This document shows, piece by piece, positions 4,617 to 40,000 of a stretch of 45,403 nucleotides of DNA. The stretch is from Myxosarcina sp. GA_180221_E-2-1-MAG-40_15. GTDB lineage: Bacteria; Cyanobacteriota; Cyanobacteriia; Cyanobacteriales; Xenococcaceae. The stretch is taken from positions 1 to 45,403 of the forward strand of contig JAIMKV010000039.1 in NCBI GenBank assembly GCA_020692205.1, in the 5' to 3' direction. A program made the position numbers and the translations under genes. Position 1 is the first letter of the stretch; the number at the start of each line of letters is the position of its first letter. The notes beneath the pieces were generated by a model, which saw only the letters and a program-made list of their open reading frames with translations, was not told where the DNA came from and ran no database searches.

Positions 4617-4840
4617 ATGTTTAAATACTTGCAATATTGAAATATTAGTTAATTCACAAGCTCGACAAATAAAAACCTCTTAAGAGCTAAGAGCCAATAG
4701 CTGAAAACCAAATTATTGCAACTTAAATTTATCAATTATCAAGCTTAAATTTTCGTACTAAAGGTAGAGTCTAAATAATCTTCAAACTTGCCAATATGAT
4801 TCATATAAACCAACATAAAAAAAATTCGGAGGCAAAATAT

Positions 4841-5131
4841 ATAGCATTAATCCACTGGCAACCTTTCCCCGAAATGAACTCTTTGCCAAGAGACATGAAT
4901 CGTCTGTTTAAAGCTCTTGCACCTATGGAACAAGAATCATCATCAATACAGCAATCTTTTATGCCTTTGGCAGAAATGGTAGAAACTGAAGATGCGATTA
5001 TCTTAGAGTAGGAATTCCTAGCATGGATGCAAAAAACTTGGACGTGCAAGTAACTAAAAAAGCGGTGATGATTAGCGGTGAACGTCAATCTTAATCGAAA
5101 TTAACCAAAAATGGTACGACTCGTATCACTC
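4841..5131 (+). pseudogene. Decayed small heat-shock protein (Hsp20/alpha-crystallin) gene
   Basis: The reading IALIHWQPF...MNRLFKAL matches the N-terminus of cyanobacterial HspA-type proteins (usually MALxRWxPF...MNRLF). The expected start codon is ATA (4841-4843), although GGAGG remains at 4828-4832. The frame reads to a TAG at 5009-5011. The homology then resumes in another frame at 5011 (PSMDAKNLDVQVT...ISGERQS) and hits TAA at 5092-5094. Weak similarity (TKNGTTR) continues to about 5131, and the rest of the alpha-crystallin domain is missing. Start loss, a nonsense codon, a frameshift and 3' loss together make a dead gene. It sits directly upstream of the intact CbpA/CbpM chaperone pair. 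Confidence 0.85.
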
Positions 5132-5240
5132 ATCGTCTTAGTCTTAAGCAGGCCAAGAAATTTATGACTGTGGCAGCAAGGGCAAATAAAGCATCAATTT
5201 TTCAGCTAAGTCACAATGAGTCAAGTAATCTAGAGGAAAA

Positions 5241-5516
5241 ATGTTTAAAAGCCCTAAAGGACTAGCTTCGCGTCGCGATCGCTCGATTATTTTCAAAGAA
5301 ACCTTACTTGATGCTTCGAGCCGAAATAAGTTCGGCTTCCAGGAAAAAGATATTTTACCCTTATTTAATAAATATCAGAGTAAACGACAAATTTTAATTA
5401 ATTTTGTCAGTTTTTTGACTTACGTTTTGCAGATGCCTACGCTGTTTTATTTACGCCGTTTGCGCCAAAGCAATACTATAAATATAAATATGGATTCAGA
5501 AAACAAAGATCTATAA
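5241..5516 (+). CDS. Hypothetical small protein with repeat-derived N-terminus
   Basis: A 91-codon frame whose first residues (about SPKGLASRR) are encoded by a dispersed intergenic-type repeat (5251-5276) that also occurs at 15450-15475. The remainder has a short hydrophobic stretch (about 52-68) and basic segments. I recognise no family. AGAGGAAAA just upstream could act as a ribosome-binding site. Repeat content and the neighbouring pseudogene suggest it may be debris rather than a working gene. Confidence 0.3.
   Translation: MFKSPKGLASRRDRSIIFKETLLDASSRNKFGFQEKDILPLFNKYQSKRQILINFVSFLTYVLQMPTLFYLRRLRQSNTININMDSENKDL
5251..5276 (+). repeat. Dispersed 26-bp repeat core (copy 1)
   Basis: This 26-base stretch starting GCCCTAAAGGA is the same as 15450-15475 apart from two C/T differences. 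In the second copy it forms the loop of a long palindrome. Here the flanking arms are absent and it is followed by a HIP1 site. Confidence 0.75.
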
Positions 5517-5570: not shown

Positions 5571-6560
5571 ATGGCTGCAACCGACTTTAAAGATTATTAC
5601 CAGGTATTAGGCATTAGTAAAAATGCTTCTGCTGACGAGATTAAAAAAGCGTATCGTAAGCTGGCGCGGAAGTATCACCCCGATTTAAACCCAGGCGATA
5701 AACAAGCAGAAGCTCGCTTCAAAGAAATTAACGAAGCACAAGAAGTGCTGTCAGACCCCGAGAAACGGCAAAAATACGATCAATACGGTCAATATTGGGA
5801 ACAGGTGGGTCAAGGAGGGTCACGTTCTGGATCTAGCTCAGGTTTTGGTGGATTTAATAATGTAGACGTAGGGGGTTTTGATTTTAGTCAATACGGCAAT
5901 TTTGAAGATTTTATCAACGAAATTTTAGGTCGTGCTGGTGGTCAAAGTAGAAGTAGTAGCTATGGCTATCGTACCTCTACCTCGGCTCCTGGTGGCTTCG
6001 GCAGTGGCTATGGTGATATACCAGCCCAAGATAGTGAAGCAGCGATCGCTCTTACTTTCGCCGAAGCCTTCAACGGGACACAAAAACAGTTTCGCATTGG
6101 TAACGAAACAGTAAAAGTCCGCATTCCTGCTGGTGCCAAAACAGGTAGTCGGCTGCGTATTAAAGGCAAGGGGCAACCCAGTCCTTTTTCAGGGCAACGG
6201 GGGGATTTGTATCTAAACATTGAGCTGCAACCCCATCCTTTGTTTAAATTCACTGGAGACAATTTAGTCGTCGAACTGCCAATTACCCCCGAAGAAGCGG
6301 TTTTAGGGGCAGAAATTACCGTTCCCACCCCAGATGGGAAAGTAACGATGAAAGTTCCTCCTGGAGTAGATTCGGGACAGTCTTTGAGATTGAAGGGGAA
6401 AGGCTGGCGTCAACCAAACAAACAGCGCAGCGATTTGATGGTCAAATTAAAAATAGTTACGCCCAAAGAGCTTAGCCAAACCGAACGAGAATACTACCAA
6501 AAGCTGCAACAAGCCAGCAGCTACAATCCCCGTAAAAGTTTGGAGGATACCAGATTATGA
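5571..6560 (+). CDS. DnaJ-type co-chaperone lacking the zinc finger (CbpA-like)
   Basis: A 329-residue type II J-protein. The J-domain spans about 5-70 with the HPD motif at 36-38, needed to stimulate DnaK ATPase. A Gly/Phe/Ser-rich linker (about 80-150) follows, then two C-terminal substrate-binding beta domains (about 155-310), with no CxxCxGxG zinc-finger repeats. This is the layout of CbpA. The next gene, a CbpM-like MerR-fold protein, overlaps its stop by four bases, the cbpA-cbpM pairing of many bacteria. A role in stress protein folding with DnaK is established for the family; the particular stress is not visible here. Confidence 0.93.
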
Positions 6561-6850
6561 GCAGTTTATCCCGCACTGTAGTTGATCTACAGGGCGATAC
6601 CCTAATTAGTCTTGAGCATGTTGCTACGATCACTCAAACCTCTGTCAGCACCATTGACTGCTTTATTAGACTAGGAGTAATTGAACCAGAAGGCTCGATG
6701 CTAAAACTGGAAGATATTCAGCGTGTGATTAAAATTATGCGTTTACGTAAAGATTTAGGACTGAATCTCGTAGGTGCAGCGATGGTATTAGAACTCAGCG
6801 AGGAAAATTATCGACTGCGATCGCGATTAAATGCTTTGCGTCAGTCTTAA
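6557..6850 (+). CDS. CbpM-like chaperone modulator (MerR-type helix-turn-helix fold)
   Basis: A 97-residue protein with a MerR-like winged helix (about 17-65: [13 protein letters not shown]...[10 protein letters not shown]) and a C-terminal helix. In E. coli CbpM binds the J-domain of CbpA and inhibits it. The ATG overlaps the upstream stop (ATGA), which implies translational coupling and roughly matched production, as expected for an inhibitor partner. It could instead be a small DNA-binding regulator; the gene order favours CbpM. Confidence 0.8.
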
Positions 6851-7019
6851 GAAGTATCTCTAATCCTATTTGGTTCAAAGCTATACAGGGAAAAAGATAC
6901 GGCTATTTTGGCTCAAAAAAGATCTACCCTAAGATTAATATAAAATTTTCTAAAAATGACGAGAATAAGAGCATCACTTTGATCAATTAGATTGCTCTAA
7001 ATTTGAGCCAGGATGAAAT

Positions 7020-7493
7020 ATGACAGAACGTCAAAGAGCGATTGGTAGCTTTGACAATCCCTTAAATACGGAAGCTGCCTTGAAAGAACTGGATAATTCT
7101 CATTTTTCTCTAGACCGAGTTTTTGTAATTGCCCGTAATCCAGAGGCAGAAAACAAAATAGTTGGCACAGAATTATGCGAATCATTACGCGATCGCTTTG
7201 ATACAAGAATTAGCACTGTTGCTAAACATGATCTTGATCCGACCGGAGAACCAACGGCAATCAGCTTAACTCAAGCTCTGACTCAATTGGATCTTCCCGT
7301 GGATGCGGCACGCTCATACAATGACCTAATCGCCCAAGGCAAATATTTAGTCATGGTTGAAGGCAATCAAGACGATATATCTGGGGCCAAAGCCATTCTG
7401 AAGCGTTGTGGTATTCAAGATTGGACTGTTTACAAAGTTGTCCTAGAACATCCTGAAGTGATTATTGTCGATCATCGTGAAGCTCTTTCATAA
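7020..7493 (+). CDS. General stress protein 17M-like (YflT-type) domain protein
   Basis: A 157-residue soluble protein. The start (RAIGSFDNPLNTEAALKELDNSHFSLDRVFVIAR) fits the alpha/beta GSP17M/YflT domain known in Bacillus stress proteins and widespread in cyanobacteria. A second half (about 95-140, ARSYNDLIAQGKYLVMVEG) resembles the other half of the same fold. There is no membrane segment or catalytic motif. AGGA precedes the ATG. The molecular function of the family is unknown; a stress role is inferred from homologues and neighbours. Confidence 0.7.
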   Translation: MTERQRAIGSFDNPLNTEAALKELDNSHFSLDRVFVIARNPEAENKIVGTELCESLRDRFDTRISTVAKHDLDPTGEPTAISLTQALTQLDLPVDAARSYNDLIAQGKYLVMVEGNQDDISGAKAILKRCGIQDWTVYKVVLEHPEVIIVDHREALS

Positions 7494-7740
7494 AGTCATT
7501 TGGTTAGAAATATTATCTAATTCATCTTGGTGATTTTACAGCATTAATTTTAAACAAAATATCGATCTAGCTTCTGCTTAACTTTAAATCTCTATCAAGA
7601 TCACCGTTTTTGGTACAGGTAAACCTAAAGTAACGAGCAAGCCAAAGATCGACTATCTCAACCAAGTGTGAGGATGCCGTTTTAAATGGCACACAAACAC
7701 AATTAACAATTTACATAATTAAGCATGAGGAAAAATAATT

Positions 7741-8376
7741 ATGGCTTATACAGATCCAGACAGAAACCAAGTAATCGAAACATTTGCGATCGAAGACAAC
7801 AAAGATCGGATTAGGTGGGGACCAATTTTAGCTGGGATTTTTGTGGCGCTCGCCACTCAGTTAATTCTTGCTGCTTTGGGTGCGGCGATTGGTTTAACCG
7901 TTGGCGCATCAGGAGGTGCGATTGGCATTGGTATCTGGACAATTGTTAGTTTACTAATCGCTCTATTCCTCGGTAGCTGGGTAGCTGCGGCTGGCTGTAG
8001 CCCGATGAACAAAAAAACCGCCATGCTACACGGATTAATTCTGTGGGCAACAACTTTGGCTCTTAGTGCTTGGTTGCTAGCTAGCGGCGTAACAGGAGCT
8101 TTTGGGATAGCAGCCTCTAATGCAGGAGAAATCTTAAATCAGGCACAACAACAACCAGGTGGCGTTAATGTTCCTAATCAAGTACCTAATATACCGAATC
8201 AAAGGTTAGAGCAGATCGCAGGAGATTCGGCAAAAGCAGCCTGGTCGTTCGTTATTGGCTCATTGTTAGGGTTAGCTGCATCTTTAATTGGTGCTTCGGT
8301 TGGAGCGAAAAAACCTAGACCAGTTCGTACAGGAAGAGTTGCTGAACCTCAACCACCAGAAAACTTTGCTCGATAA
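7741..8376 (+). CDS. Small multi-pass membrane protein of unknown function
   Basis: A 211-residue protein with a short polar N-terminus, then glycine/alanine-rich membrane segments at about 28-52, 58-82, 95-125 and 165-190, a Pro/Asn/Gln-rich loop (about 135-160) and a basic tail. It resembles conserved cyanobacterial hypothetical membrane proteins found near stress genes. A GAGGAA ribosome-binding site lies upstream and a strong terminator 20 bases downstream, so it is expressed on its own or ends the unit. No function can be assigned. Confidence 0.7.
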   Translation: MAYTDPDRNQVIETFAIEDNKDRIRWGPILAGIFVALATQLILAALGAAIGLTVGASGGAIGIGIWTIVSLLIALFLGSWVAAAGCSPMNKKTAMLHGLILWATTLALSAWLLASGVTGAFGIAASNAGEILNQAQQQPGGVNVPNQVPNIPNQRLEQIAGDSAKAAWSFVIGSLLGLAASLIGASVGAKKPRPVRTGRVAEPQPPENFAR

Positions 8377-8396
8377 TAATTCAGGCTAAATCAATC

Positions 8397-8441
8397 AAAA
8401 AAAGGGACGAGAAAACTATAATATCTTCCTGTCCCTTTTTT
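8397..8441. terminator. Bidirectional terminator between convergent genes
   Basis: GGGAC (8404-8408) pairs with GTCCC (8431-8435). An A-run (8397-8403) on one side and a T-run (8436-8441) on the other let the hairpin terminate transcription from both directions: the membrane protein gene on plus and the histidine kinase gene on minus. Confidence 0.8.
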
Positions 8442-8540
8442 ATTGCTTGACCCAATCTATGGTCATTCCCATTAATTTCCATATGTTTTGGGAAATCGAC
8501 AACGAAGTGTATACCATATATCGCCGTAAAGCCTCTGACT

Positions 8541-9653
8541 TCATACTTCATAAGGAATAGTTACTGTAAAAGTAGTACCAACCTCTAACTCACTTTCTAC
8601 GGTGATGTCACCTTGATGTAGCTCAACATATTGCTTGGCGATCGCCAGACCCAAACCCGTACCCTGGAAACCTGCTGAGTTACTGGCGCGATAAAAAGAT
8701 TCAAATAGCTGAGGCAGATCGGCAGGGGGAATACCGATACCGCGATCGCGAATGATAAAAATTATGTTTGATTCTTGCTCGATAACTTCAAAATCAATTA
8801 CGCTATCCTTTGGCGAGTATTTGCAAGCATTGGATAACAAATTAGTCAGAATATGATGTAGCAGCTTGCGATCAAGATTAAATTCCCCTTGTTGTGCTTG
8901 ATAAACTAAGTTGATCGACTGCTTGCTCTGAAATACGGTTTGAACTTCATTCATTAAACTGTGACAGAAGCTTTCTAAGTTTAGGGAACTTGGTTCAAAC
9001 TCTTGTTTTCCCATCTCATTACGACTCATCATTAACACATCGTCCAATAAATTGGTCATTTTGGTAACGTTGCGCTGTAGCTGCTGGAGAACTTCGGCTT
9101 TTTTTTCCCTAGATAAACTATCGCCATAAGCCTGCAAAATTTGTGCCATACCTGAAATGCTGTTAAGAGGGTTGCGAAATTCGTGGGACACGGTAGAGAC
9201 GAAGCGAGATTTAAGCCGATTTAGTTCTTTTTCTTGAGATAGAGCTTGGTTTAATTCTGCTTTTGCTGCTTGAAGTTGTAATGAATAAGAACGCGATCGC
9301 AATAATACCCTTAATTTGGTTTGCAGTTCATTTTGCTGGGTAGGAAGATAGACTATATCATCAATCAATGGTTCAAGATGATCCGTAGAAAAACCAACAT
9401 TTTCTAAAGAAGTTAGAAACACAAATGGGAGAAACATAGGAGCGGAAGATGCTCTTTTCGCTAGCATTTTTTCTCTTAGCTGATGAATAGCAGCAAAGTC
9501 AATAAAGCATAAATCAAAATTTTCTAATAACAACTGTGCGCCAACATCGGCTAAATCTGCTTCAGAAGACAAAATCTCATATTGCTTGGTCAGCCACTTA
9601 GAAAGAATACGGCGATTTTGTTGATGTTCTAATAACAGGAGAATACGTTTCAT
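8541..9653 (-). CDS. Sensor histidine kinase with degenerate N-terminal receiver domain
   Basis: A 370-residue cytoplasmic kinase. Residues 1-120 have a receiver-like fold with the phospho-Asp position kept (Asp52 in LCFIDF). The acidic pair at the first strand is reduced to one Glu (Glu9) and the conserved Lys before Pro near 104 is missing, so it looks like a pseudo-receiver. A coiled linker (about 121-150) follows, then HisKA with H157 (VSHEFRNPL) and HATPase: N-box at 271-280, DRGIGIP at 303-309, GTGLGLAIAK at 331-340. It follows the KaiC-like gene on the same strand, separated by 181 bases holding a strong inverted repeat. KaiC paralogue plus kinase is a recurrent pairing, so the kinase probably signals with it. 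No partner response regulator is in the window. Confidence 0.9.
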   Translation of the reverse strand: MKRILLLLEHQQNRRILSKWLTKQYEILSSEADLADVGAQLLLENFDLCFIDFAAIHQLREKMLAKRASSAPMFLPFVFLTSLENVGFSTDHLEPLIDDIVYLPTQQNELQTKLRVLLRSRSYSLQLQAAKAELNQALSQEKELNRLKSRFVSTVSHEFRNPLNSISGMAQILQAYGDSLSREKKAEVLQQLQRNVTKMTNLLDDVLMMSRNEMGKQEFEPSSLNLESFCHSLMNEVQTVFQSKQSINLVYQAQQGEFNLDRKLLHHILTNLLSNACKYSPKDSVIDFEVIEQESNIIFIIRDRGIGIPPADLPQLFESFYRASNSAGFQGTGLGLAIAKQYVELHQGDITVESELEVGTTFTVTIPYEV

Positions 9654-12414: not shown

Positions 12415-12821
12415 AATTAATTATTGTTTTTAAATCGTTTTTAACTAGTACTATTATACTATTTGATCTCAGGTTCGGTTGAATAGTCTACTAAAGTAGG
12501 TATGAAGTATGAAGTTTACATCTTTTAAGATAAAGTCCTCAAAGCAGCAAAAATATGGTTTTAATCACAATTCGTTGTGATTGTCAGCTAAAAGCTAAGA
12601 GCTAAAAGCTAAAAGCTACCCAATAAGTGCGAGGCTTTGTAAACCGAAGCCCCGACGTTTGATAGATAAAACTAAAAAGACTTTAAAAACATCTACTAAT
12701 TTACATAGTATTTTTGCTCCAATCGAAAGGTTGAATTCCATCTTTATGAAGAAGTAAACCCAGCCTAAATTGGCAAAGATATAAATATCTCACTACATAC
12801 TTTACGTCTTTAAACAATTTG
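12415..12821. other. Intergenic region with small heptamer tract and hairpin
   Basis: No gene is visible. It holds nearly five heptamer units related to the main array at 12586-12618, and a hairpin-forming stretch 12631-12653 (GGCTT / AAGCC inner stem) with no matching upstream gene to terminate. Promoters of the two divergent neighbours must lie here but are not obvious. Confidence 0.5.
12586..12618. repeat. Short heptamer array (AGCTAAA family)
   Basis: Units begin at 12586, 12593, 12600, 12607 and 12614 (last one partial). Same unit and orientation as the 17-unit array about 1 kb to the left, on the other side of the DUF5895 gene, so the gene is bracketed by related arrays. Confidence 0.85.
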
Positions 12822-14117
12822 ATGTTGCCAATTACTTCAGTCAATCGACCTGCGGTAAAAGTAGGTCGAATCAACGATGATGCTCATTTAAAACCATTGG
12901 TCAGCCAATCGCCTCTGAAAAGCTGTGAAGTTTGCGTAATTGTTCCTGTGCGTAATGAAGGATTAAATCTAGAAGCAACGCTTTGGGCTTTAACCAATCA
13001 AATTGATCTAAAAGGTAAAGCGTTAGCTAAAAATTGTTATGAAATTATTGTTTTAGCTAATAACTGTACCGATAATTCAGCCGAAATTGCCAGACGTTTT
13101 GCGCAAAATCAGCCTAATTTAATGCTTCATGTTGTGGAGATGACTTTAAATAGCGATCGCGCTCATATTGGCTGGGTACGCAAGCTGTTAATGGATGAAG
13201 CCAGCAGAAGATTTAAATCTCTTGGACGCAATTTGGGCGTAATTGCCTCTACCGATGGAGATACAAGAGTTGCTTCTACCTGGATTGCCGCTACTTTAGC
13301 GGCAATAAACCATGGTGCTGATGCTGTCGGGGGTCGGATTATTACGGATAGCAGCGAAAGAAGCAAGTTAGATAGGCTTACTAGACTATATTATCTGCGC
13401 TACTCACGCTATGGCTATTTAACCTCACAGCTAGAGACTTATTTAGACCCATACTTTGAGTCACTGCCGCGACACCACCACCATTACGGTGCCAGCTTGG
13501 CTGTAACTGCACATATATACGATCAAGTTGGCGGACTACCACCTTTACGCTCTTCAGAAGATGTTGCTCTGTATGATGCTCTTAGGCGAGTTGATGCTCG
13601 TTTTCGTCATAGTCCGACGGTAAGAGTAATTACCAGTGCCAGAGCCATCGGCAGAGCCGAAGCAGGACTTTCAGATCGCTTGTCTCAGTTGAACGTGATG
13701 GCTCAAAAACACCAGCAAATCTTGGTCGAACCTGCCAAATTAGTTGAACTACGTCTTTGTCTGCGTCGTTGGTTACGCTATCTGTGGCAAAATATGCAAC
13801 AAGGGAATATTCCAGTCGAGCTGGCAGTTATTGCTCAAAAATTGGCTCTAAGCAGTGAGCTACTGGAAGAAACGATTTTGCGATCGCCTACTTTTGGTTT
13901 GCTAGTAGAGCGAATTGGGCAAGATCAGCAAGACAATCATGATTTGGATCGCAATTGGCAAAAAGTAACGATTCAAAAAGCAATTGCCGACCTACAAGCC
14001 ATCATTAATCGTGTTTCTTTTTTGAGTAACTATTCAACCTTAGAACCAGATAAATATTTATCCCTAGATGCGCTCGAACAAATCGAGCCGATATCGCTCT
14101 TGCCGCAATCCTTGTAA
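12822..14117 (+). CDS. Family 2 glycosyltransferase (GT-A fold)
   Basis: A 431-residue soluble enzyme. The nucleotide-sugar-binding start CVIVPVRNEGLNLEATLWAL (about 36-55) and the metal-site region with DGDTRV near 147 mark a GT2 enzyme. A GGLPPLRSSEDVAL segment near 246 supplies the acceptor-side acidic residues. No membrane helices are seen, unlike chitin or cellulose synthases. ATG at 12822 follows a TTG at 12819; I prefer the ATG. The last 54 bases overlap, tail to tail, the end of the NodS-like methyltransferase. Together with that gene, a PIG-L deacetylase and a flavoprotein it forms a compact cluster, probably making one modified sugar conjugate (inference). Donor and acceptor are unknown. 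Confidence 0.88.
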   Translation: MLPITSVNRPAVKVGRINDDAHLKPLVSQSPLKSCEVCVIVPVRNEGLNLEATLWALTNQIDLKGKALAKNCYEIIVLANNCTDNSAEIARRFAQNQPNLMLHVVEMTLNSDRAHIGWVRKLLMDEASRRFKSLGRNLGVIASTDGDTRVASTWIAATLAAINHGADAVGGRIITDSSERSKLDRLTRLYYLRYSRYGYLTSQLETYLDPYFESLPRHHHHYGASLAVTAHIYDQVGGLPPLRSSEDVALYDALRRVDARFRHSPTVRVITSARAIGRAEAGLSDRLSQLNVMAQKHQQILVEPAKLVELRLCLRRWLRYLWQNMQQGNIPVELAVIAQKLALSSELLEETILRSPTFGLLVERIGQDQQDNHDLDRNWQKVTIQKAIADLQAIINRVSFLSNYSTLEPDKYLSLDALEQIEPISLLPQSL

Positions 14118-14651
14118 ATGTTTGAGATCGGTAGCGGGGAGTTGTAAAAAAGAATCGTGAACTTCATCGCCTGTTAGGGGATAATCTTTGGCAAACAGTG
14201 TCCAGTGAACTAGCAACAGATGTCCCCCTTTCTCTAAGCGTTCGAGAATTAATTGTTGAGTCTTGTTTAAATCAGACCAACTTAAGTAATACCCTACTTC
14301 TGACAGCAAAGTTAGATCAAACATTTCATCGGGGTAAGCTTGCGGTATTTGAGCAATTCTAAAGCGTACCTGGGGCAAATCTTGACAACGAGCGATCGCC
14401 CGTTTTTGAGCAATTTCCGAAACATCGAGCGAAAGCAAAGAATCACAGCGTTGTGCCAATAAAGCCGTAAGTACCCCAATCGAACCACCTATTTCTAGCG
14501 CGTTAGTGTAACTAGGCTTTGGTAAAGTAGCAATGGTTGTTTGGTATTTTTGGGCTTCATACTCGCTAGTTTCAAAATCCCACGGATCGGGATTTGCTCG
14601 ATACATAGCTTCAAAATAACTCGGCGGTAAAGAATTTTTAGGCTGGTTCAT
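14064..14651 (-). CDS. NodS-family SAM-dependent methyltransferase
   Basis: A 195-residue class I methyltransferase. The opening YFEAMYRANPDPWDFETSEYE, then the SAM site ALEIGGSIGVLTALLA (about 51-66), fit the NodS family (PF05401), whose founder N-methylates the deacetylated amino sugar of rhizobial Nod factors. In motif I the usual Cys/Gly position is a Gly (EIGGSIG). Its start overlaps the stop of the PIG-L gene by four bases, so the two are translationally coupled: a deacetylase followed by an amino-group methyltransferase is chemically sensible. The C-terminal end overlaps the convergent GT2 gene by 54 bases. The actual substrate is unknown. Confidence 0.88.
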   Translation of the reverse strand: MNQPKNSLPPSYFEAMYRANPDPWDFETSEYEAQKYQTTIATLPKPSYTNALEIGGSIGVLTALLAQRCDSLLSLDVSEIAQKRAIARCQDLPQVRFRIAQIPQAYPDEMFDLTLLSEVGYYLSWSDLNKTQQLILERLEKGGHLLLVHWTLFAKDYPLTGDEVHDSFLQLPATDLKHLQGLRQERYRLDLFERI

Positions 14652-15409
14652 GATTCAACTTCTAAATATATTTCCCAAGGTTGCGTAAAATTTTGGAGCA
14701 TTTGAGGTGTGAGGCGAAACCCTTGCGGATCGTCTTTAATTAAATCACTGATTTGAGAACGATATTGTGCGATCGCCTGTCGTTTCAATTCAAGGACGCT
14801 ACTAATATCCAATCGCCAAGCCTTAACTGAGTCCCTAAAATCACCTCTTTGTTTGGTGTCCCAATCCCAAATTGGATATTCAATTAGGCGCGGGGGATTA
14901 GTTAAATTACCCATAGCTATAGTAAATAATTGCCAGCTAGCGCGATGATCTGGATGCGGATCTTTTCGCCAAGGTAGAAAAATTAGCGACGGTGCTAAAT
15001 TAGTTAGGTAATGGCGAATAGGCGCGATCGCTTTTTCTGATTCACTGCTAATATATACCTCACCGTCTGACATACCCAAAAAAGTAACTACTTCTGGTGC
15101 AACTCCCAAAATAGCTAAAGCAGCTAAACTTTCTTGTTCTCGTAATTTCTTGAGTGCTGGAGGTGGATAGACTTGGGAATTGCGATGCGATCCTGTTCCA
15201 TCGCTGACAATTAACACTTTTACAGCTATATTTAATTGACGTAATAAAGCGATCGCTCCACCACAGCCTAGAGTTTCATCATCGGGATGGGGAGCGACGA
15301 TTAGAATAGATTGAGCAGCAGATTGATTTACCAGAGTTTTAATGTCTAAAAATGGTAAAGACTCTGGGGAGTTAAAAAAGCGATCGCCTGTAGCAGCCAT
15401 TTGTGTCAA
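14648..15409 (-). CDS. PIG-L/LmbE family zinc-dependent N-deacetylase
   Basis: A 253-residue enzyme with the family signature APHPDDETLGCGG (about 39-51) and the second metal motif HPDHRA near 173. Together these supply the His/Asp zinc ligands and catalytic base used to remove acetyl groups from GlcNAc-type sugars (MshB, PIG-L, BshB). There is no signal peptide, so it acts in the cytoplasm on a precursor. It is the middle gene of a minus-strand unit: flavoprotein (75 bases upstream, gap filled mainly by a palindromic repeat), PIG-L, then NodS-like methyltransferase (4-base overlap). Deacetylation of a sugar made by the adjacent GT2 is a reasonable inference. Confidence 0.92.
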   Translation of the reverse strand: MTQMAATGDRFFNSPESLPFLDIKTLVNQSAAQSILIVAPHPDDETLGCGGAIALLRQLNIAVKVLIVSDGTGSHRNSQVYPPPALKKLREQESLAALAILGVAPEVVTFLGMSDGEVYISSESEKAIAPIRHYLTNLAPSLIFLPWRKDPHPDHRASWQLFTIAMGNLTNPPRLIEYPIWDWDTKQRGDFRDSVKAWRLDISSVLELKRQAIAQYRSQISDLIKDDPQGFRLTPQMLQNFTQPWEIYLEVES

Positions 15410-15437
15410 CTAATAATTTGCAGCAATTCCAATTCCC

Positions 15438-15488
15438 GTAGGGGCGAACGCCCTAAAGGATTAGCTTTGCGTCGCCGTTCGCCCCTAC
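15438..15488. repeat. 51-bp palindromic repeat (13-bp perfect arms)
   Basis: Arms GTAGGGGCGAACG (15438-15450) and CGTTCGCCCCTAC (15476-15488) are exact reverse complements; the loop is the dispersed repeat seen at 5251-5276. I remember GGGGCGAACG / CGTTCGCCCC elements as common in cyanobacterial genomes. It overlaps the 3' end of the flavoprotein gene and provides its TAG stop (15485-15487). It can form a stable hairpin in the mRNA between the flavoprotein and PIG-L genes. Confidence 0.9.
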
Positions 15489-16699
15489 AATGTCCAAAGC
15501 TGACTAGCATTCGCCGTTTCTGCCAAAACGCATTTTCCGACATCAGTAATAGCTAGATCGAAAGCAGGCTGACGCAGATATAAACTCAAATCTCTAATTA
15601 GACGTTCCATTGGTTCAGGTGGTAGTAAACCTAAAGTCCCAATCGAGCGTTGACTTAACTGAATTGTATCCAAACATATTTGTTCGATCGCCGTGCGCAC
15701 CATGTTGGCATAAGCGACTAATTTTGGGGCTTGTTCTGGGTTATCTTCGGGATAACCACCAAACACGGGGGCATAATCATCGACTACTTGCGCAGCACCC
15801 TTTAACCAAAGACTGCCACTTTCAATTGCGATCGCCATTTTGCCCAAACGTTCTTGCTGATGGGGATGTTCACAACGATTTTGCCTCTGGAGATATTGAC
15901 GAGTCGCATTAAATAAGGCTTCAGCACCGCCAAGCTGTACCGCAGCAAAGCGAATTACACCACCGCTCAACCAAGGCTGACGAAAATAGTCTCCAGGTTG
16001 AGCAATCAAAGACTGCTGTTCGATTTCTACCCCTGTAAAGTCTACTTTGTAGCTAACTGTAGCCCGCATTCCCGACGGTTGCCACCAGTCAGAGTCCACT
16101 ACTGTTTTAACTTCATCCATCGGCACAATACACATTTGCCAACTGCCATCGGGTAACTTACCGTTAACAAAAGGACGCTCTACATAACCACAGCCAGTGC
16201 AAAAGGTTTTACTACCTTCTAGTCGATATTTGCCATTTTTTTGAGGAATAATATTTACTCCATCTGCTGCTTCGGCATTCCAGACTCCAAATATTTTATG
16301 CTGTCTAGCATCGGCAGCATAGGTTTCTATTTGCTCTGGTGTACCAAAGGTTTGAACCAGTTGTAAAGCATTAACGTGACCTTCATAAATCCGTCCGACA
16401 ACTAGATTGCCGCGTCCAATTTCTTGGAGAAGGATTAACAACTCTTGAGTATGACCTGTTTCAAAGCCTAACCCCAGTCCACCTAAACGAGGGCTTAAAG
16501 GTGCAGTCAATAGACCTGCTGCTGCGATCTGCTGAAATTCTTCGGTAGGAAAAATCCCTTGTTTATCTAGCGAATCTGCATTAGCTGCGGCAAAATCAGC
16601 AATTTTAGGTGTTGCTTTGACGATGCCTTCGGCTAGCTTCGTAATTGCATCTAGTGATATCTGAGTTGAGGCTAGGTTAGGAAAAAGTTGACTAGTAAT
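15485..16699 (-). CDS. Acyl-CoA dehydrogenase-like flavoprotein, probable ATT start
   Basis: A 404-codon gene of the acyl-CoA dehydrogenase superfamily. The N-terminal helical domain runs to about 125, the flavin-binding beta domain follows (FGVWNAEAADG near 140, ATVSYKVDF near 225), then the C-terminal helices (QRSIGTLGLLPPEPMERLIRDLSLYLRQP). Coding similarity extends upstream of the first normal start (TTG 16510) for 63 more codons with no stop, giving a full-length domain. An excellent GGAGAAGG lies just before an ATT at 16699-16697, with no ATG, GTG or TTG in frame there. The C-terminal EGTxE-type catalytic Glu region of true dehydrogenases is absent (RQPAFD instead), so oxidase or monooxygenase chemistry is possible. 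It begins the unit with PIG-L and NodS-like genes. Confidence 0.8.
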   Translation of the reverse strand: MTSQLFPNLASTQISLDAITKLAEGIVKATPKIADFAAANADSLDKQGIFPTEEFQQIAAAGLLTAPLSPRLGGLGLGFETGHTQELLILLQEIGRGNLVVGRIYEGHVNALQLVQTFGTPEQIETYAADARQHKIFGVWNAEAADGVNIIPQKNGKYRLEGSKTFCTGCGYVERPFVNGKLPDGSWQMCIVPMDEVKTVVDSDWWQPSGMRATVSYKVDFTGVEIEQQSLIAQPGDYFRQPWLSGGVIRFAAVQLGGAEALFNATRQYLQRQNRCEHPHQQERLGKMAIAIESGSLWLKGAAQVVDDYAPVFGGYPEDNPEQAPKLVAYANMVRTAIEQICLDTIQLSQRSIGTLGLLPPEPMERLIRDLSLYLRQPAFDLAITDVGKCVLAETANASQLWTL

Positions 16700-17446: not shown

Positions 17447-18121
17447 TTATTCCTCAATCGCTGTTTGACACTTTTGACTCTCAATTAAATCTAGGTTAGC
17501 TATGGCTTGAGCCGAAGCTTGTAGCTGTAAAATGTTGGTTGCTTGTTTTAATAAATAAATAGGTAAGCAAAATATCAGCAATAATTGACCGAGATTTAAA
17601 TTCCAACCAGTTAAGTTAAAGTTCAGCCCAACAAAGTAAAAATTAAGATAGAGCAGCAGATAAAAAAGCTCATTACCTAAAATCAATAAATCCATAAATG
17701 GTTTACTGCCGTAATACAGTTTGATCAGTCTATTAGTTGACCACTCGGCAGAATCTTTATGACTAGCTTCCCCTAGTAGCCCTGTAGCGTAAATTAGATA
17801 ATAATGGCTGCTAAGATCAAGAGCGATCGCGCCAATAAAAGCTAATAAATAATTCGGGTATAGCTGCGCTAAAATTAAACATAAGCCCGCAGTAGCCGAG
17901 CGATCTGCCACCATATCTAAGGCTGCACCAAAATTACTGCTTTGGTTATAGGCACGGGCAGCACGACCATCAAATTCATCCAAAATAAAGGCGATCGCAT
18001 ATAGCCCAAGGCACAGTTGCCAGTTTCCTAGACTATGACTAATAAAGCTGGCAAAATAAAATCCGAATCTTAAATAACCAATAATATTTGGTACGTACAA
18101 AAATACCTGGTTGATCGACAT
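17447..18121 (-). CDS. CDP-alcohol phosphatidyltransferase resembling eukaryotic phosphatidylinositol synthase
   Basis: A 224-residue integral membrane enzyme. The full CDP-alcohol phosphotransferase motif is present: D48-xx-D51-G52-xx-A55-R56-x8-G65-xxx-D69-xxx-D73. Beyond the motif it follows, as remembered, eukaryotic PI synthase (CDIPT/Pis1): FLYVPNIIGYLR at the start, DGRAARAYNQ after the first Asp, a SHK near 139, GNELFYLLLYL near 168, and a C-terminal AxAxANLD. These match eukaryotic signatures rather than PgsA or PssA. The expected reaction is CDP-diacylglycerol plus myo-inositol to phosphatidylinositol plus CMP, unproven here. Six membrane helices are plausible. The start lies 9 bases after the S9 peptidase stop, so the genes are co-transcribed. 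Confidence 0.85.
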   Translation of the reverse strand: MSINQVFLYVPNIIGYLRFGFYFASFISHSLGNWQLCLGLYAIAFILDEFDGRAARAYNQSSNFGAALDMVADRSATAGLCLILAQLYPNYLLAFIGAIALDLSSHYYLIYATGLLGEASHKDSAEWSTNRLIKLYYGSKPFMDLLILGNELFYLLLYLNFYFVGLNFNLTGWNLNLGQLLLIFCLPIYLLKQATNILQLQASAQAIANLDLIESQKCQTAIEE

Positions 18122-18130
18122 ATTTCCAAT

Positions 18131-20059
18131 TTAAGCCAAATTAATAATTTCTATTGGTTCAATGGGATCTGCTGGCTCAAACCCAAAGATACGAGCATAA
18201 AAATAAAATTCACTATCAAGAGCCTTTTTGATATTGTCCGCAATTCTAAAGCCATGCGCTTCTTGCTCAAAAGAGATATAAGCCACGGGCAAACCTTTGT
18301 TTTTAATCGCTTGAAACATCATCTCTGCCTGATTGGGTGGAACTACCTTGTCCTTTAGACCTTGAAAGAAAATTACGGGACAGTTTAACTGTTGCGTAAA
18401 GTGAATTGGCGATCGCTGTTGATAAATAGCTTGATCTTCAGGATATTTGCCAACTAAGCCATCCAAGTAGCGAGATTCAAATTTGTGAGTATCTTTGGCT
18501 AAAATCTCTAAATCGCTTATGCCATAATAGCTTGCCCCTGCTTTAAAGGTATCGCGAAAAGTCAAGGCTGCCAGGGTAGTATAACCTCCCGCACTGCTGC
18601 CTGTAATTACTAAGCGATCGCCATCTACCCGCCCTTGATCAACTAGATATTGAGCCGCATTGACGCAATCATCCACATCCACAACACCCCACTGACCATT
18701 TAATCTCTGACGATACTTACGTCCATAACCAATACTGCCGCCATAATTAACGTCTAAATAGCCAAAACCCCTACTAGTCCAATACTGAATCCGCAGGTTT
18801 AAATCCACTGAGGCTGCTGCTGTCGGGCCACCATGACTTTTAACTATTAAAGGGGGCAGTTCTCCTGGCGGGGCAATATAGTCTTGATTTTGCGGGGGAT
18901 AATACCAAGCATAGGCAGTTAAATCATCTGTTGTGGGAAAGGCGATCGCTTCTGGCAGGCTAAGATAGCCAGGTTCAAGCTTCAGATCTTGGGTTCGCTT
19001 TAGTACTTGCTGGGTTTCCGTCTCCAAATTCAGCTTAACTACTGCTGCGGCTTCTGTAGGTGAACCGCCGATGAAGACGACAAAACCATTGCTACTACCT
19101 TGAAGATCGGAGATATTAGTAAATCTGGTTTTAATTTCTTTAAACTGCTTAGTTTTAAGGTCAATCATGCCTAAATGCCAGCAACCGTCGGCTGAATAAG
19201 CACACACTAGTCGATTGCCGACTAAAGTATAAGTAGATAGCCCAAATACCCAATGAGGATAGGCAAATTCTGCCGCTTTTTCGTGTAAAATTTCGTCCTT
19301 GCCATCTAAATTGCGTCGATAAATATTCCACCAGTTAGTGCGATCGCTAGAAAAATACAGTGTACCGTCGCTACCCCACTTTGGTTCGCAAATAGACTCA
19401 GCTTCTCCCCCAGCAATCAGCTTAGATTCAGAGATCAAGCCGTTTTCGTTGAGTTTTCCTAACCATAAATAAGTACTGTCCCAGGGCATATCAGGATGAT
19501 TCCAACTCAGCCAGGCTAGCTGTTGACCATCAGGACTTAGGCGAGGAGAAGAATAAAAATCACTGCCTGCGATTAAATTTTGAATTCTGCCAGTATCAAG
19601 ATCAATACTGACAATACTATTGTTGGCTTCAGCTTCAGCCTGGTGGTCTTCACAAACACAAACTAGGCGATTTCTGGCTTGGTCGACTATTATGTCCCCG
19701 TAGCGTTGATTTAATTCGTTAGTTAGGGGATTAGGCTGTTTGCCGATAATCTGTTGATAGATTTTACCGTCTTGGTAATTAGAAAAATAAATTGTCTTTT
19801 GTTCGACGACAAAAGCCCCCCCACCATATTCATGTATTTTGCTACGAACGCTCAACGAAGCAGAAGTGATATCTTGCTCACGTTGATTGAGATAGCCGAC
19901 AATGACATTTCTACCTTGTTCTTGGGGGCGGTTTTCCACCCAGTAAATCTCTTCGCGATCAACCGCGATACTACCGATCCCAATAGTTTTGGCAACGATT
20001 AAGTTTGAGGTTATGGGAGATTTCCAAGAACCAAAGGCAGCAACTTGAGGTGTTTTCAT
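18131..20059 (-). CDS. S9 family peptidase (prolyl oligopeptidase / acylaminoacyl-peptidase type)
   Basis: A 642-residue cytoplasmic serine peptidase. An N-terminal beta-propeller-like region (about 30-360) with repeated WSPDG/SSDR-type turns shields the active site. The alpha/beta hydrolase domain (about 380-630) carries the triad Ser489 in GSSAGG, Asp570 in GLKDKVVPP and His602 in EAHGF. A conserved SHGGPT forms the oxyanion region near 408. I chose the ATG at 20059 (with TTGGA before it) over a TTG nine bases upstream, which has no room for a ribosome-binding site. It releases short peptides or acylated amino acids. The lipid-synthesis gene follows after 9 bases; a functional link is not obvious. 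Confidence 0.92.
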   Translation of the reverse strand: MKTPQVAAFGSWKSPITSNLIVAKTIGIGSIAVDREEIYWVENRPQEQGRNVIVGYLNQREQDITSASLSVRSKIHEYGGGAFVVEQKTIYFSNYQDGKIYQQIIGKQPNPLTNELNQRYGDIIVDQARNRLVCVCEDHQAEAEANNSIVSIDLDTGRIQNLIAGSDFYSSPRLSPDGQQLAWLSWNHPDMPWDSTYLWLGKLNENGLISESKLIAGGEAESICEPKWGSDGTLYFSSDRTNWWNIYRRNLDGKDEILHEKAAEFAYPHWVFGLSTYTLVGNRLVCAYSADGCWHLGMIDLKTKQFKEIKTRFTNISDLQGSSNGFVVFIGGSPTEAAAVVKLNLETETQQVLKRTQDLKLEPGYLSLPEAIAFPTTDDLTAYAWYYPPQNQDYIAPPGELPPLIVKSHGGPTAAASVDLNLRIQYWTSRGFGYLDVNYGGSIGYGRKYRQRLNGQWGVVDVDDCVNAAQYLVDQGRVDGDRLVITGSSAGGYTTLAALTFRDTFKAGASYYGISDLEILAKDTHKFESRYLDGLVGKYPEDQAIYQQRSPIHFTQQLNCPVIFFQGLKDKVVPPNQAEMMFQAIKNKGLPVAYISFEQEAHGFRIADNIKKALDSEFYFYARIFGFEPADPIEPIEIINLA

Positions 20060-20923
20060 AAATTCCAATTCCCTTTAATCAGAGTTCTTGTCGCCTACGC
20101 TTAATTATTTTTACAGCTTTGTGAACCTAATTCATATAGTAATATTTTCAGTAGAGGAGTCTAATTCAACTTATAAATGAGTTGTCTTTAAACGACGGGC
20201 GATCGCTTTTCGATTCAAACCAGTTGAATCTCAAGTATTTTTGTTGACCAAACCAGTTAGCCTCAATTGACTAAGATTAATTAGAACTACCAACATTTTA
20301 GGCTCAAGTTTGTACCTAGATAAACCAAAAATTAATCGTATTTACGCTTGCAGTTTGTCAGGGTCAAAGTAGCGGTTGTTGGACGAATCACCGCCCTCAA
20401 GGGATCGGTGACTCTAGCTATTAGCTTTTAGCTAAAAAAGTTATCCTAGAAGGGCAAGGTGCATACTCCCAAAATTATTGGTAACGTTCCAATGATTTAA
20501 TCCTTTCTTTAAATTAATTGAAATACTTGCTCAGCTTTATTTTGTCATCAGTGTTGCATTTTGAATCGTGCCTTATCTGTATGATCTTTAATAGCCAACC
20601 TTGATCCTAAACTGAGCAAAATTGAGAATCAACTCGCATCTTTAATAAAAATTTACATAAGTTAATAAAAATAGTGTATTGTAAAGGCTAGAGAACAAAA
20701 TCAAAGAATTTAGTTTAATTCCATGAAAATGCTAAAGAAGGAGCTGTTATTGACCATTGGAGCTAAGATGTAAGAAGAGGGTTAAGTTACACCATAGCGT
20801 AACATTTTGAACTTGAGTTAATTTACCTTAACATAAGTAAACACAAAGCCTCATAAAACTCTAGGTTTTGACGACAACAGAATTTTCTTCTTACACAATC
20901 AACATCTCATAGCTAACCGCGTC
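20060..20923. other. Long intergenic region between the S9 peptidase and sigma factor genes
   Basis: About 860 bases with no credible gene. A good hairpin at 20388-20411 (TCACCG with CGGTGA, plus CCCT with AGGG inside) is followed by a degenerate heptamer tract (about 20413-20437). The right third is AT-rich and likely carries a long leader for the sigma factor gene; I cannot assign promoter boxes. Confidence 0.5.
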
Positions 20924-33862: not shown

Positions 33863-33996
33863 TGCCTCTTACTATATTTTTCTGCTTTTATCGGTTATTC
33901 TTTGTCTGAGATATTATTATCATTAGCGAGTATTTACAAACATACCTCGCTTTTGGATAAGCTAGATAAATACATCTAGCTTAGTGGGTGGCAAAG

Positions 33997-34010
33997 AGAG
34001 GAATCGATTG
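33997..34010 (+). promoter_or_regulatory. Ribosome-binding site with TTG start of the olefin synthase
   Basis: AGAGGA (33997-34002) is five bases before TTG at 34008. The alternative GTG at 33984 has no purine-rich sequence before it. The protein from TTG starts SKQITLIDRLQ, just ahead of the conserved region. Confidence 0.6.
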
Positions 34011-37000
34011 AGCAAGCAAATAACCCTAATAGACCGACTACAAGAACAAGCAAGTATTCAGCCTGATAAACGGGCATTTACTTTCTTGGCTGACGGTGAA
34101 ACTGAGATCGATAATCTCACGTATCAACAACTAAATGAGAAAGCGAAGGCGATCGCTTTTATCTTGCAAAATCAAAATGCTAGAGGAGAAAGGGCATTAC
34201 TGCTCTATCAGCCAGGGCTAGATTTTATTACAGCTTTCTTGGGTTGCTTGTATGCAGGAGTGGTAGCCGTTCCTGTATATCCACCCCGCTCCAATCGTTC
34301 TATTGAGAGGTTACTGGCGATCGTCGCTGATGCTGAAGCTAATTTTGCTTTAACGACAAAATCGATTCAAGAGCAGGTTGCCAGTCAGTTTACCGCTCAT
34401 AATGCTACCGAAAAAATTAAGTTTCTGCCCACTGATACTTTTGAACTAAGTTTAGCCACAGGTTGGCAGTACCCCGCGATCGCTTCAGACAGCTTGGCTT
34501 TTCTGCAATATACCAGTGGTTCAACAGGCAAGCCTAAAGGAGTGATGGTGAGCCATGGGAACTTAATGGCTAACACCAAGACTATTCAGCATTGCTTTGG
34601 CAACAAGCGAGAACATACCCTAGTATCTTGGCTTCCTCCTTATCATGATATGGGCTTAATTGGCTCGATCATCCAGCCTGCCTATGTTGGGTCGTCAATG
34701 TATCTGATGGCACCTGTAACCTTCCTCCAGCGACCTTATCGTTGGCTACAGGCAATATCTCGCTATGGGGGACAAACTAATGGCGGCCCTAATTTTGCCT
34801 ACGATCTTTGTGTAGATCGGGTCACTCCTGAACAGAAAGCAACTCTCAATTTAAGCTGCTGGGAGCTGGCTTTCTCTGGTGCAGAGCCAGTGCGAGCCGA
34901 AACCATAGAACGTTTTAGTGAATATTTTCGTGACTGTGGATTCGAGCGTCGAGCTTTCTATCCTTGCTATGGCATGGCGGAATCGACCCTGATGATTACA
35001 GGCAGCGTCAGAGGCAATGAACCTATTACTGCTAGCTTCGATCTCAAGCACCTAGAAGAGAATCGCGCTGTTGTCTCAAACGCTGAGGATAGTATTACCC
35101 TGGTCAGTAGTGGTCGTAATGCCCCAGAACAAAAACTTGTCATCGTTAATCCTGAAACTCTAAACCAATGTCCTAACGGCGAAGTCGGCGAAATTTGGGC
35201 GAAAAGCAAAAGTATTGCTCAAGGATATTGGCATCGTCCTGAGTTAAGTGTTTATAGCTTTGATGCGGTCTTAACTGATACCGAAGAAGCGGGGTGGTTA
35301 CGCACAGGAGATTTAGGGTTTTTACAAGGCGGAGAATTGTTTGTCACGGGACGGTTAAAAGATTTAATTATTATTCACGGACGCAATTATTATCCTCAAG
35401 ATATTGAACTAACCGTTGACAATGCTCATGAGGCAATACGGGCAGGGAACACGGCGGCTTTCGCTATCGAAGTTGCGGGGGAAGAACAGCTGGTAATCAC
35501 TCCTGAAATTAAGCGAACTCATCTACGTAAGCTGAATGTAAAAGAAGTTACCAAAGCGATCCGCAGTGCCGTAGCCCAAAATCATGAGCTACAAGTTCAC
35601 GCCATAGTTTTATTAAAAACAGGCAGCATTGCCAAAACATCTAGCGGTAAAATTCAGCGTCACGCTTGTAAAGCAGCATATTTGGCTGAGAATTTGAATG
35701 CCGTTGGGCAAGATGTTCGGCAGGAGCGAAATCAGACCACAGGCAACAGGCAACAGAAGCAACTTCAAGGCGAGCTAGTTAGTATTACGGGATTTGAGGC
35801 TCGACAGAATCAGATTCAAGCCTGGTTAATCGAAAATCTGGCTCAGCGTTTGGGTGTACCTACCTCAGAAATAGGCATCAACGAACCCTTTGCTAGTTTT
35901 GGTTTGAATTCAGTAGCTGCCGTTAATCTATCGGCAGATTTAGAAGACTGGCTGGAGATCAAGCTTTCTCCTACTGTGGTTTACGACTATCCGAATATTG
36001 TCGAACTTGCTGCTTATCTATCCCAATCAACAATCAGCGATCGCTTATCAACCGCTAACTATCAACTGTCAACCATTAACCGCCAAGAGACAGAAATAGC
36101 GATCATTGGCATCGGATGTCGTTTTCCTGGGGCAAATAATCCTGAGCAATTCTGGCAGCTATTACGAGAAGGTAAAGACGCAATTACCAAAAGCGATCGC
36201 TGGGATGGAGCGGACTGGGGTGGCTTTATCGATGATGTAGACCAATTTGACCCCCAGTTTTTTGGCATTACTCCCCGGGAAGCTCAAAGCATCGATCCAC
36301 AGCAAAGGCTATTACTAGAGGTTAGCTGGTCGGCTGTAGAAAATGCGGCGATCGCCAAGGAAATAGCTGGGAGCAATACTGGCGTATTTATCGGGATCAG
36401 CAGCAGCGACTACTCCCAGCTGAGATTCCACTATGGGGTCGAGGTAGATGCTTACCTAGGCACAGGTAATGCCCATAGTATCGCTGCCAATCGCCTTTCT
36501 TATCTTTTAGATCTAAAAGGTCCTTCCTTGGCAGTAGATACGGCTTGTTCTTCTTCTCTAGTGGCATTACATTTAGCCAGTCAGAGTTTGAAAACTGGAG
36601 AATGCAACTTAGCGATCGCTGGTGGAGTTAATTTGATGTTAACCCCCGAACTGACTCAAACTTTTTCCTTGGCGGGGATGATGGCGGAGGATGGACGCTG
36701 CAAGACTTTTGATGCTGATGCTGATGGATATGTCCGTGGTGAAGGCTGCGGTGTGGTTATTCTCAAACGGTTGAGCGATGCTCGACGGGATGGCGATCGC
36801 ATTTTGGCGGTTATTAAAGGTTCAGCAATCAATCAGGATGGGCGGAGCAATGGTTTGACCGCTCCCAATGGACTATCACAACAGGCGGTAATTCGTCAGG
36901 CTTTGGCTAATGCTAACGTCGCGCCAACAGAAATTAGCTACATTGAGTCCCACGGCACAGGAACATCTTTGGGTGATCCGATTGAAGTTAATTCTCTTCG

Positions 37001-40000
37001 ATCTGTTTTCGGTCAAGCAAGGGAAGAATCTTGTTATCTAGGTTCGCTTAAAACCAATATTGGACACCTAGAAGCAGCAGCAGGAATTGCTGGGTTGATT
37101 AAAACGGTGCTTTGTTTACAAAATCAAGCCATACCACCGAACCTACACTTTAAACAGCTAAATCCGCTAATCGATTTATCAGACACTAAAATTACTGTTC
37201 CTCAACAGCTACAGGCGTGGCAGGCAGAAATTAGATATGCCGGAGTTAGCTCCTTTGGATTTGGTGGCACCAATGCTCATGTCATCTTAGGAGACGAGGA
37301 GACAAAAAGACAGGGAGTAGAGCCTGAAATCTTCCTCGAACGCCCGTTTGAGCTATTAACTCTTTCAGCCAAAACTGAACCAGCGTTAAAGGATTTGGTC
37401 TTAAGCTACCAAGATTATTTAGCCAGTAATCCAGAGGCTAGCTTAGCTGATATTTGCTACACGGCTAGTGCTGGACGTACCCACTTTCAGCATCGTATGG
37501 CGATCGCCGTTAATTCTAAAGCTCAACTACAGCAAAAACTCGCAAGTTGGCTCGCGGCACAATCAGCTAAGGGAATTGTTTACGGCGAGGCTCAAAACAA
37601 CAACCAAATAGCGTTTCTGTTTACAGGACAGGGTTCGCAATACGTGAATATGGGTTATCAGCTATATCAAACCCAACCAGTCTTTAAACAGGCGCTGGAT
37701 CAATGTGCCGCCATCCTGGAATCATATTTAGACCAACCCCTGCTTCAAGTTTTATATCCCGATTCCTCATCCTTGATGCTTGATGCTTCATTTCTGCTTG
37801 ATAAAACTGTTTATACTCAGCCAGCGATTTTCGCCCTTGAATATGCGGTGGCGCAGATGTGGCTCAACTGGGGAATTAAACCCGCGGCATTGATCGGACA
37901 TAGTGTAGGGGAATACGTTGCGGCTACTTTAGCTGGGGTGTTTAGTTTAGCTGATGCTTTAAAGTTAGTGGCGACAAGAGGTAAGCTGATGCAAAGCTTA
38001 TCCCAAGCAGGAGATATGTTTGCGGTATTTGCCGATGAAGCTACTGTTATCTCCATAATTAAACCCTGGGGGGAGCAAATAGCGATCGCCGCAATCAACA
38101 GTCTTCAAAGCGTGGTAATTTCTGGGGAGCAAACTACAGTCCAAGAAGCAGTTAGTAAGTTTGATTCTCAGGGAATTAAAAGCAAACAACTAAAGGTTTC
38201 TCATGCTTTCCATTCTCCGCTGATGAAGCCGATCTTGAAGGAATTTCGGGCGGTTGCTGAGTCGGTTGAATATTTTCCGCCTCAAGTCAAGTTAATTTCT
38301 AACGTTACGGGAAATATAGCTACTGAAAAAATTGCTACGGCTGATTACTGGGTAAACCATGTGGTTGCTCCTGTACGTTTTGCTGATGGGATGAAAACTT
38401 TACAGCAAGAAGGTAATATCTTTTTGGAAATTGGCTCAAAACCAATACTGTTAGGGCTAGGACGTTCTACCCTAACTGGGAATAAGCTTGAGCCACTATG
38501 GCTGCCTAGTTTACGCCCCAGGAAAAAAGATTGGCAGCAAGTATTGCAAAGCCTTGGCTCTTTGTATGTCCGCGGGCTAGCTATTAATTGGCAAAATGTA
38601 GCCCAAGGCAATAGCAGGCAGAAAATTACCTTGCCTACCTATCCTTTCCAAAGACAAAGCTATTGGTTGACTAAAGCTGTGCAGGCAAACCGTAAGGTGG
38701 AGCTATATCTACCATCAGAGCATCAGTCTGAGACTCAACCCACTGATTTTTATCAGATTGAGTGGCAGATCTATCAACCAGAATTAAGCACCGAGTTACA
38801 GCCCGACGGTAGCTGGTTGATTTTTGCCGATGAGAGTGGCTTAGCTGGGCAGCTTGCCGCTAAATTAACCCAACAGCATTGTACTCTGATTCGCGATCGC
38901 CATCTCGATTCAGCCAAATTAACCGAAATATTGAGCAACCAGCAACACCTAGACAAAATTATTTATCTAACTGGCTTAGATCATCTTCAACCAGAAACTA
39001 TTACAGGAATATCTAACTATCAGCAGCAGCACTGTACGAATATCTTAAATCTGCTTCAGGCTTTGTCAGAGAATTCGATTAATGCTTCACTCTGGCTCGC
39101 TACTAGAGGAAATCAAGGTAACCAGAATCTAGGTAGTGATGCGATCGCTTCTAGCTGTCTCTGGGGATTAGCTAATGCGATCGCCATCGAACATCCTGAG
39201 TATTGGGGTGGCATTGTCGATCTGGCTCCCACCCCGACTCGTAATGAGGCAGATTGTCTGCTGGGAGTTATTGCTAATCACAGCCAAGAAGATCGCGTGG
39301 CAATAAGCCAAGAAAAATTATATGTACCCCGTTTGCAACAAGCATCAGGGATCAACTCCAATAAACCTCTGAAATTAAATCGCGATGCTGCTTATCTAAT
39401 TACAGGCGGATTAGGTTCATTAGGCTTGCAGGTTGCTCAGTGGTTGGTAGATCAAGGTGCCAAGCATCTCTTGCTACTGGGCAGAAGCCTACCTTCAGAA
39501 CACGTCCAACAAGCGATCGCTAAATTAGAACAGCAGGGCGTTATCGTTCGTACTATTCAGGTTGATGTTACCGACTATGAAGCGCTAAAAAATATCATCT
39601 CCTCATCGCCAATCAAGGGAATTATCCACGCTGCGGGAATATTAGATGATGGTTTGTTAGCAAGGCAAACCTGGACGAAATTCGAGGGAGTGATTGCACC
39701 TAAAGTTACTGGTGCGTGGAATTTACATTTATTAACCAAAGATATCGAGCTAGATTTCTTGGTGCTGTTTTCTTCCGTCGCTTCGATGATTGGTTCGCCA
39801 GGACAAAGTAACTACAATGTGGCTAATACAGGCTTGGATGCGATCGCTCGTTACCGCCGTAGTCTCAATTTACCTGCTTTAAGCATTAATTGGGGTGCTT
39901 GGAGTGATAGTGGGATGGCAATCAAACAGGGGTTTAACGTCAAAGGGTTGAATTTAATCACGCCCCAAAACGGTTTAGAAGCTCTAAAACAGTTGCTAAC

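Follow-up and report, generated by a model that had tools for sequence, protein, structure and literature searches.

Our results reveal that a group of Pleurocapsa-like cyanobacteria carries a conserved gene for what appears to be a phosphatidylinositol synthase (PIS) of the type found in animals, plants, and fungi, together with a bacterial-type inositol-phosphate synthase (MIPS) that could supply its substrate. We consider it likely (probability of about 0.85) that the protein belongs to the eukaryotic PIS/CDIPT family and uses free myo-inositol to make phosphatidylinositol (PI). The motif, the full-length similarity to PIS, the conservation of the gene, and its co-occurrence and partial adjacency with MIPS were observed directly, whereas the acceptor, the product, and the production of the lipid are inferred. 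We found no record that the lipid or the activity has been demonstrated.

The gene was identified in a 45,403-nucleotide stretch of DNA (here, the window) that corresponds to contig JAIMKV010000039.1 of Myxosarcina sp. GA_180221_E-2-1-MAG-40_15 (assembly GCA_020692205.1). A sequence-only reading had proposed, without giving a strand, that the open reading frame at 17447-18121 encodes a protein that carries the general CDP-alcohol motif and follows human and yeast PI synthase outside it. Our analysis confirms this observation. The open reading frame is real, lies on the minus strand, begins with ATG, and encodes 224 aa. The features of the locus are as follows.

17447..18121, minus strand: predicted phosphatidylinositol synthase (eukaryotic PIS/CDIPT type), 224 aa
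17903..17980, minus strand: CDP-alcohol phosphotransferase motif, residues 48-73 (D48 D51 G52 A55 R56 N59 G65 L68 D69 D73)
18068..18103, minus strand: N-terminal PIS signature FLYVPNIIGYLR, residues 7-18, in which P11 N12 G15 Y16 R18 are invariant with the eukaryotic PIS references
17804..17809, minus strand: Ser105-His106, aligning with His114 of the yeast PIS1 reference
17756..17764, minus strand: SHK, residues 120-122
17645..17677, minus strand: GNELFYLLLYL, residues 149-159, in which E151 Y154 L157 L159 are invariant with the eukaryotic PIS references
17534..17548, minus strand: KQATN, residues 192-196, in the C-terminal part
18131..20068, minus strand: prolyl oligopeptidase-family protein (PF00326), 9 bp upstream on the same strand, possibly cotranscribed but not thought to be part of the pathway

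The protein is a CDP-alcohol phosphotransferase. It matches Pfam PF01066 at 59.5 bits, against a cutoff of 22, and the motif D-X2-D-G-X2-A-R-X2-N-X5-G-X2-L-D-X3-D (PMC8727905) is complete. Eight of its residues (D48 D51 G52 A55 R56 G65 D69 D73) are the only invariant columns when 44 family members, including PgsA-like proteins, are aligned. From the family, we infer that metal ions held by D48, D51, D69, and D73 activate CDP-diacylglycerol, that the hydroxyl of myo-inositol attacks the beta phosphorus, and that PI and CMP are released. An AlphaFold model built from 12 close rows was unusable (pLDDT 52.9), and a second model built from 44 rows (pLDDT 72.5) gave the family fold only weakly. The 25 best PDB matches to it, the first being the PgsA structure 7drk, were all family members, but at E values of 0.02-1.4 with none under 0.001, and the alignment used held other family members, which biases the model.

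Outside the core motif, the protein resembles eukaryotic PIS over its whole length. The human CDIPT, Arabidopsis PIS1, and yeast PIS1 sequences used for comparison were not drawn from a database, which should be kept in mind wherever they serve as references. Against them, the protein is 39%, 37%, and 36% identical, respectively, over 215-222 aligned columns (E 7e-41, for human CDIPT, to 9e-39), while the three are 32-41% identical to one another. In an alignment of four cyanobacterial and the three eukaryotic sequences, 41 columns are invariant, of which 33 lie outside the eight core motif residues. The shared features include length, the full motif with NQ inside it, N-terminal PN-x-x-GY-x-R, SH, SHK, E-x-x-Y, and a C-terminal K. 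SHK is invariant in 7 of 7 rows and in 12 of 12 sequences from the genus, K192 is invariant in 7 of 7 rows, and K192 Q193 T195 N196 are invariant in the 12 genus sequences. Of the stretches highlighted by the sequence-only reading, VPNIIGYLR, NQ, SHK, and GNELFYLLLYL align with the eukaryotic references, but the terminal ANLD (208-211) is weaker because only A208 and D211 are invariant among the 12 genus sequences. As an internal check, residue 114 of the yeast reference is histidine, a position that may affect inositol affinity, and it aligns with His106 of the cyanobacterial protein. Finally, a profile built from the three eukaryotic sequences alone gave 182-207 bits to 13 cyanobacterial copies (182 to the window protein), 135 bits to a fourteenth, partial copy, at most 49 bits to 23 other prokaryotic family members, and at most 8.5 bits to 200 shuffles of the window protein.

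An argument could be made that the protein is an ordinary bacterial PgsA, PssA, or PIP synthase with a chance resemblance to CDIPT, given that it shares the family motif and that Pfam names only the superfamily. We regard this as very improbable. Although no curated model names the protein, all 10 NCBIfam models listed score far under their cutoffs: archaetidylinositol-phosphate synthase (NF040950) at 32.2 bits (cutoff 180), PgsA at 29-30 (109, 304; TIGR00560 at 28.7 against 109), PssA at 28 (107), actinobacterial PIP synthase (NF045883) at 23.2 (170), the Bacteroides-type PIP synthase BT1523 model NF052561, which is itself titled hypothetical protein, at 20 (350), and four others. Similarity to PgsA is confined to the part around the core motif, and a separate PgsA-like gene lies in the same genome. 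The motif containing G-L-x-R-L-A that is described for PS synthase (PMC8727905) is absent. Furthermore, a maximum-likelihood tree of 22 rows placed all 11 cyanobacterial and eukaryotic PIS rows in one clade (95/92 support) apart from 11 prokaryotic family members, and not within bacterial PgsA or PIP synthases. Yet, 8 of the 19 inner branches are open, two prokaryotic rows exceed 5 changes per column, and holding cyanobacterial PIS together with two PgsA rows is rejected only narrowly (p-AU 0.043).

The gene is a resident of these genomes. In the window's family, 13 of 27 genomes have it, including 12 of 13 in its genus, 1 of 4 in a second genus, and 0 of 10 in the rest. Contigs of equal length tie some of these to named strains: Pleurocapsa sp. 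CCALA 161, Waterburya agarophytonicola KI4, Pleurocapsales LEGE 10410, Hyellaceae CSU_1_1, and Xenococcaceae MO_234.B1. Of 386 genomes spread over the phylum, 76 match at 1e-5, but only the window's own genome scores above 37 bits. Of 388 genomes of the order, 25 match a mixed profile at 1e-10; 12 genus members, the Xenococcaceae metagenome-assembled genome (MAG), and a genome of another family (G474) score 142 bits or more, while the other 11 are under 50 bits. Within the family of G474, 1 of 20 genomes has it. Many cyanobacterial cultures are not axenic, which raises the possibility of eukaryotic contamination. However, the evidence excludes it: the other 11 genus copies are 75-87% identical to that of the window, three carriers have the gene on contigs of 4.5 to 6.4 Mb, the open reading frame is uninterrupted, and bacterial genes surround it. 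The gene is also under purifying selection, with dN/dS of 0.10-0.16 against five relatives (a sixth comparison was saturated). One genome (G409) has, in addition to an intact copy, a decayed C-terminal second copy (C1:5226021-5226275). Searches for relatives in plasmids (none at 1e-5), phages (11 records, none covering 80% of the query), and viral contigs (none confirmed) led nowhere. A scan of 84,980 species genomes with six exact 8-residue peptides of the query gave 7 loci, all from Pleurocapsa-like or related cyanobacteria, and so says little about distant bacterial PIS.

The distribution of MIPS suggests a source of inositol. MIPS (PF01658) is present in exactly the same 13 of 27 family genomes and in 3 of 386 genomes across the phylum. 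In the order, 43 of 388 genomes have MIPS, and all 14 PIS-bearing genomes are among them (Fisher p 5e-15, which ignores shared ancestry and so overstates, since 12 of the 14 are one genus). MIPS is not a strict marker of PIS, however, because 29 of the 43 genomes lack this PIS. In the Xenococcaceae MO_234.B1 MAG, which belongs to a sister genus, MIPS (locus L009, 3546-4694) and PIS (4764-5429) sit in tandem, 69 bp apart, followed (5907-8898) by a B12-binding radical SAM protein and a diacylglycerol-kinase-family lipid kinase on the other strand. In G474, MIPS and a distant PIS (locus L105, 8961-9548, minus strand), about 36% identical to that of the window, lie convergently next to each other, but this PIS is frameshifted after about 31 codons and is an assembly error or a decaying gene. 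MIPS is bacterial in type (TIGR03450, 459 bits, cutoff 638; about 66% identical to a Sphingomonas plasmid MIPS), rather than the eukaryotic INO1. Cyanobacterial MIPS form a clade (100/100) against two alphaproteobacterial rows; PIS carriers sit in two places in the best tree, though one clade is not rejected (p-AU 0.21). In three genomes (G211, G439, and G519), MIPS genes are shortened or split into two frames (L091:8215-8748, L125:7675-8547, and L130:7601-8718), as if being lost or misassembled. Inositol would be made from glucose 6-phosphate by MIPS, followed by an inositol monophosphatase; the window's own genome has four genes of the inositol-monophosphatase family, although this family was detected in all 14 control genomes and is not specific.

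In the genus loci read, PIS and MIPS lie apart. PIS is next to a prolyl oligopeptidase gene in 5 of the 10 PIS loci compared. At 7 of 7 genus MIPS loci read, MIPS is divergent from a fatty-acyl-AMP ligase (FAAL) gene, with a CarS-like gene (CDP-archaeol synthase family, PF01864, 41.5 bits, cutoff 22; for example, L062:3470-4021, minus strand) close by, and a GT4 glycosyltransferase is there in 3 of 7, in one of them split. Relatives of FAAL at 1e-200 or better occur in 26 of 27 family genomes, so only its place beside MIPS is notable. The CarS-like gene occurs in the 12 PIS-bearing genus members, was not found in the Xenococcaceae MAG (81% complete), and is a 39-aa fragment in one other genome. 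Given that CarS proteins make CDP-lipids (PMC9385802), this one might supply or vary the CDP-DAG, but that is a guess. Next to PIS in the window (12819-16510) are GT2 glycosyltransferase, NodS-like methyltransferase, PIG-L family deacetylase, and acyl-CoA dehydrogenase-like genes. The PIG-L gene (GlcNAc-PI de-N-acetylase family, 14648-15409) looked tempting, but these genes had no relative in the other 19 stretches compared. The window also encodes (33984-42221, plus strand) a 2745-aa protein that grouped with the FAAL genes and looks like a polyketide synthase; at another locus (L071), a 2743-aa relative lies directly after PIS.

A second, prokaryotic-type route to inositol lipids may exist in the same order. 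In some cyanobacteria of another family (f17), MIPS lies one gene, a PfkB-like kinase, from a CDP-alcohol transferase that resembles archaetidylinositol-phosphate and PIP synthases (151 and 130 bits, nearer to but under the cutoffs of 180 and 170), as was the case in 3 of 6 f17 stretches read (L118:9932-10531, minus strand; L120:6178-6786, plus strand; L126:9160-9768, minus strand). A relative occurs in 10 of 310 order genomes. All 10 are on the MIPS list, one of them (G227) with a MIPS of another type on another contig, and none of the 12 genus PIS carriers has it. So the models do point to inositol-lipid synthases of prokaryotic type in this order, and the window protein is not one.

The sequence-only reading had left open whether this lineage makes PI or a PI-like lipid, or whether a CDIPT-type enzyme has another alcohol substrate. 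The presence of MIPS beside or together with PIS favors inositol as the acceptor. Alternatively, the enzyme could have taken another acceptor, such as inositol 1-phosphate, which actinobacterial PIP synthase probably uses, or another polyol, so that the product is not ordinary PI. The acceptor cannot be read from the sequence, since we found no solved structure of a eukaryotic PIS in the PDB copy searched, and the CarS-like, FAAL, and, at some loci, GT4 genes near MIPS could point to an unusual lipid. Nevertheless, we consider this scenario unlikely given the 33 noncore positions kept unchanged with animal, fungal, and plant PIS, the low score to the PIP-synthase model, and the co-occurrence of MIPS. 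In our literature searches, no title reported PIS or PI in Pleurocapsa-like cyanobacteria, and the passages found in PMC7203096, PMC7018664, PMC4928187, and PMC9385802 mention no such enzyme in cyanobacteria.

With respect to origin, the more probable inference is an old transfer from a eukaryote into the ancestor of this Pleurocapsa-like group, with a separate acquisition in another cyanobacterial family, although the direction is unresolved and prokaryotes outside Cyanobacteria were barely searched. Such a transfer fits the narrow distribution and the epiphytic life of at least one carrier, as Waterburya was isolated from a red alga (PMC8580901, in which a text search found no mention of inositol). 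Trypanosomatid PIS and MIPS never grouped with bacterial orthologues in a 2015 study (PMC4424895). Alternatively, the bacterial lineage could be the older one, with eukaryotic PIS descending from a bacterial MIPS-PIS module of which cyanobacteria keep two divergent copies. This interpretation is consistent with the two cyanobacterial PIS types, both linked to bacterial-type MIPS, and with the observation that eukaryotes are not forced to be one clade (a eukaryotic clade is not rejected either, p-AU 0.31). Yet, it is doubtful given the patchy distribution of the gene, while PIS appears to be general in eukaryotes, and a single cyanobacterial clade is not rejected (p-AU 0.23). In its boldest and still improbable form, a mobile module of MIPS plus eukaryote-type PIS, existing outside eukaryotes in at least two divergent forms, could be the source of eukaryotic PI, the base of phosphoinositide signaling, rather than only a late gene gift from an alga.

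Our findings identify a new taxonomic home for a known enzyme. They offer a prokaryotic homologue of human CDIPT, of which the PDB copy searched holds no close relative, and a case for asking in which direction PI synthesis crossed between bacteria and eukaryotes. Cyanobacterial membranes are generally described as consisting of MGDG, DGDG, SQDG, and PG. A conserved eukaryote-type PI synthase with a matching inositol supply predicts an extra phospholipid, PI, in a defined group of cyanobacteria that includes named strains.
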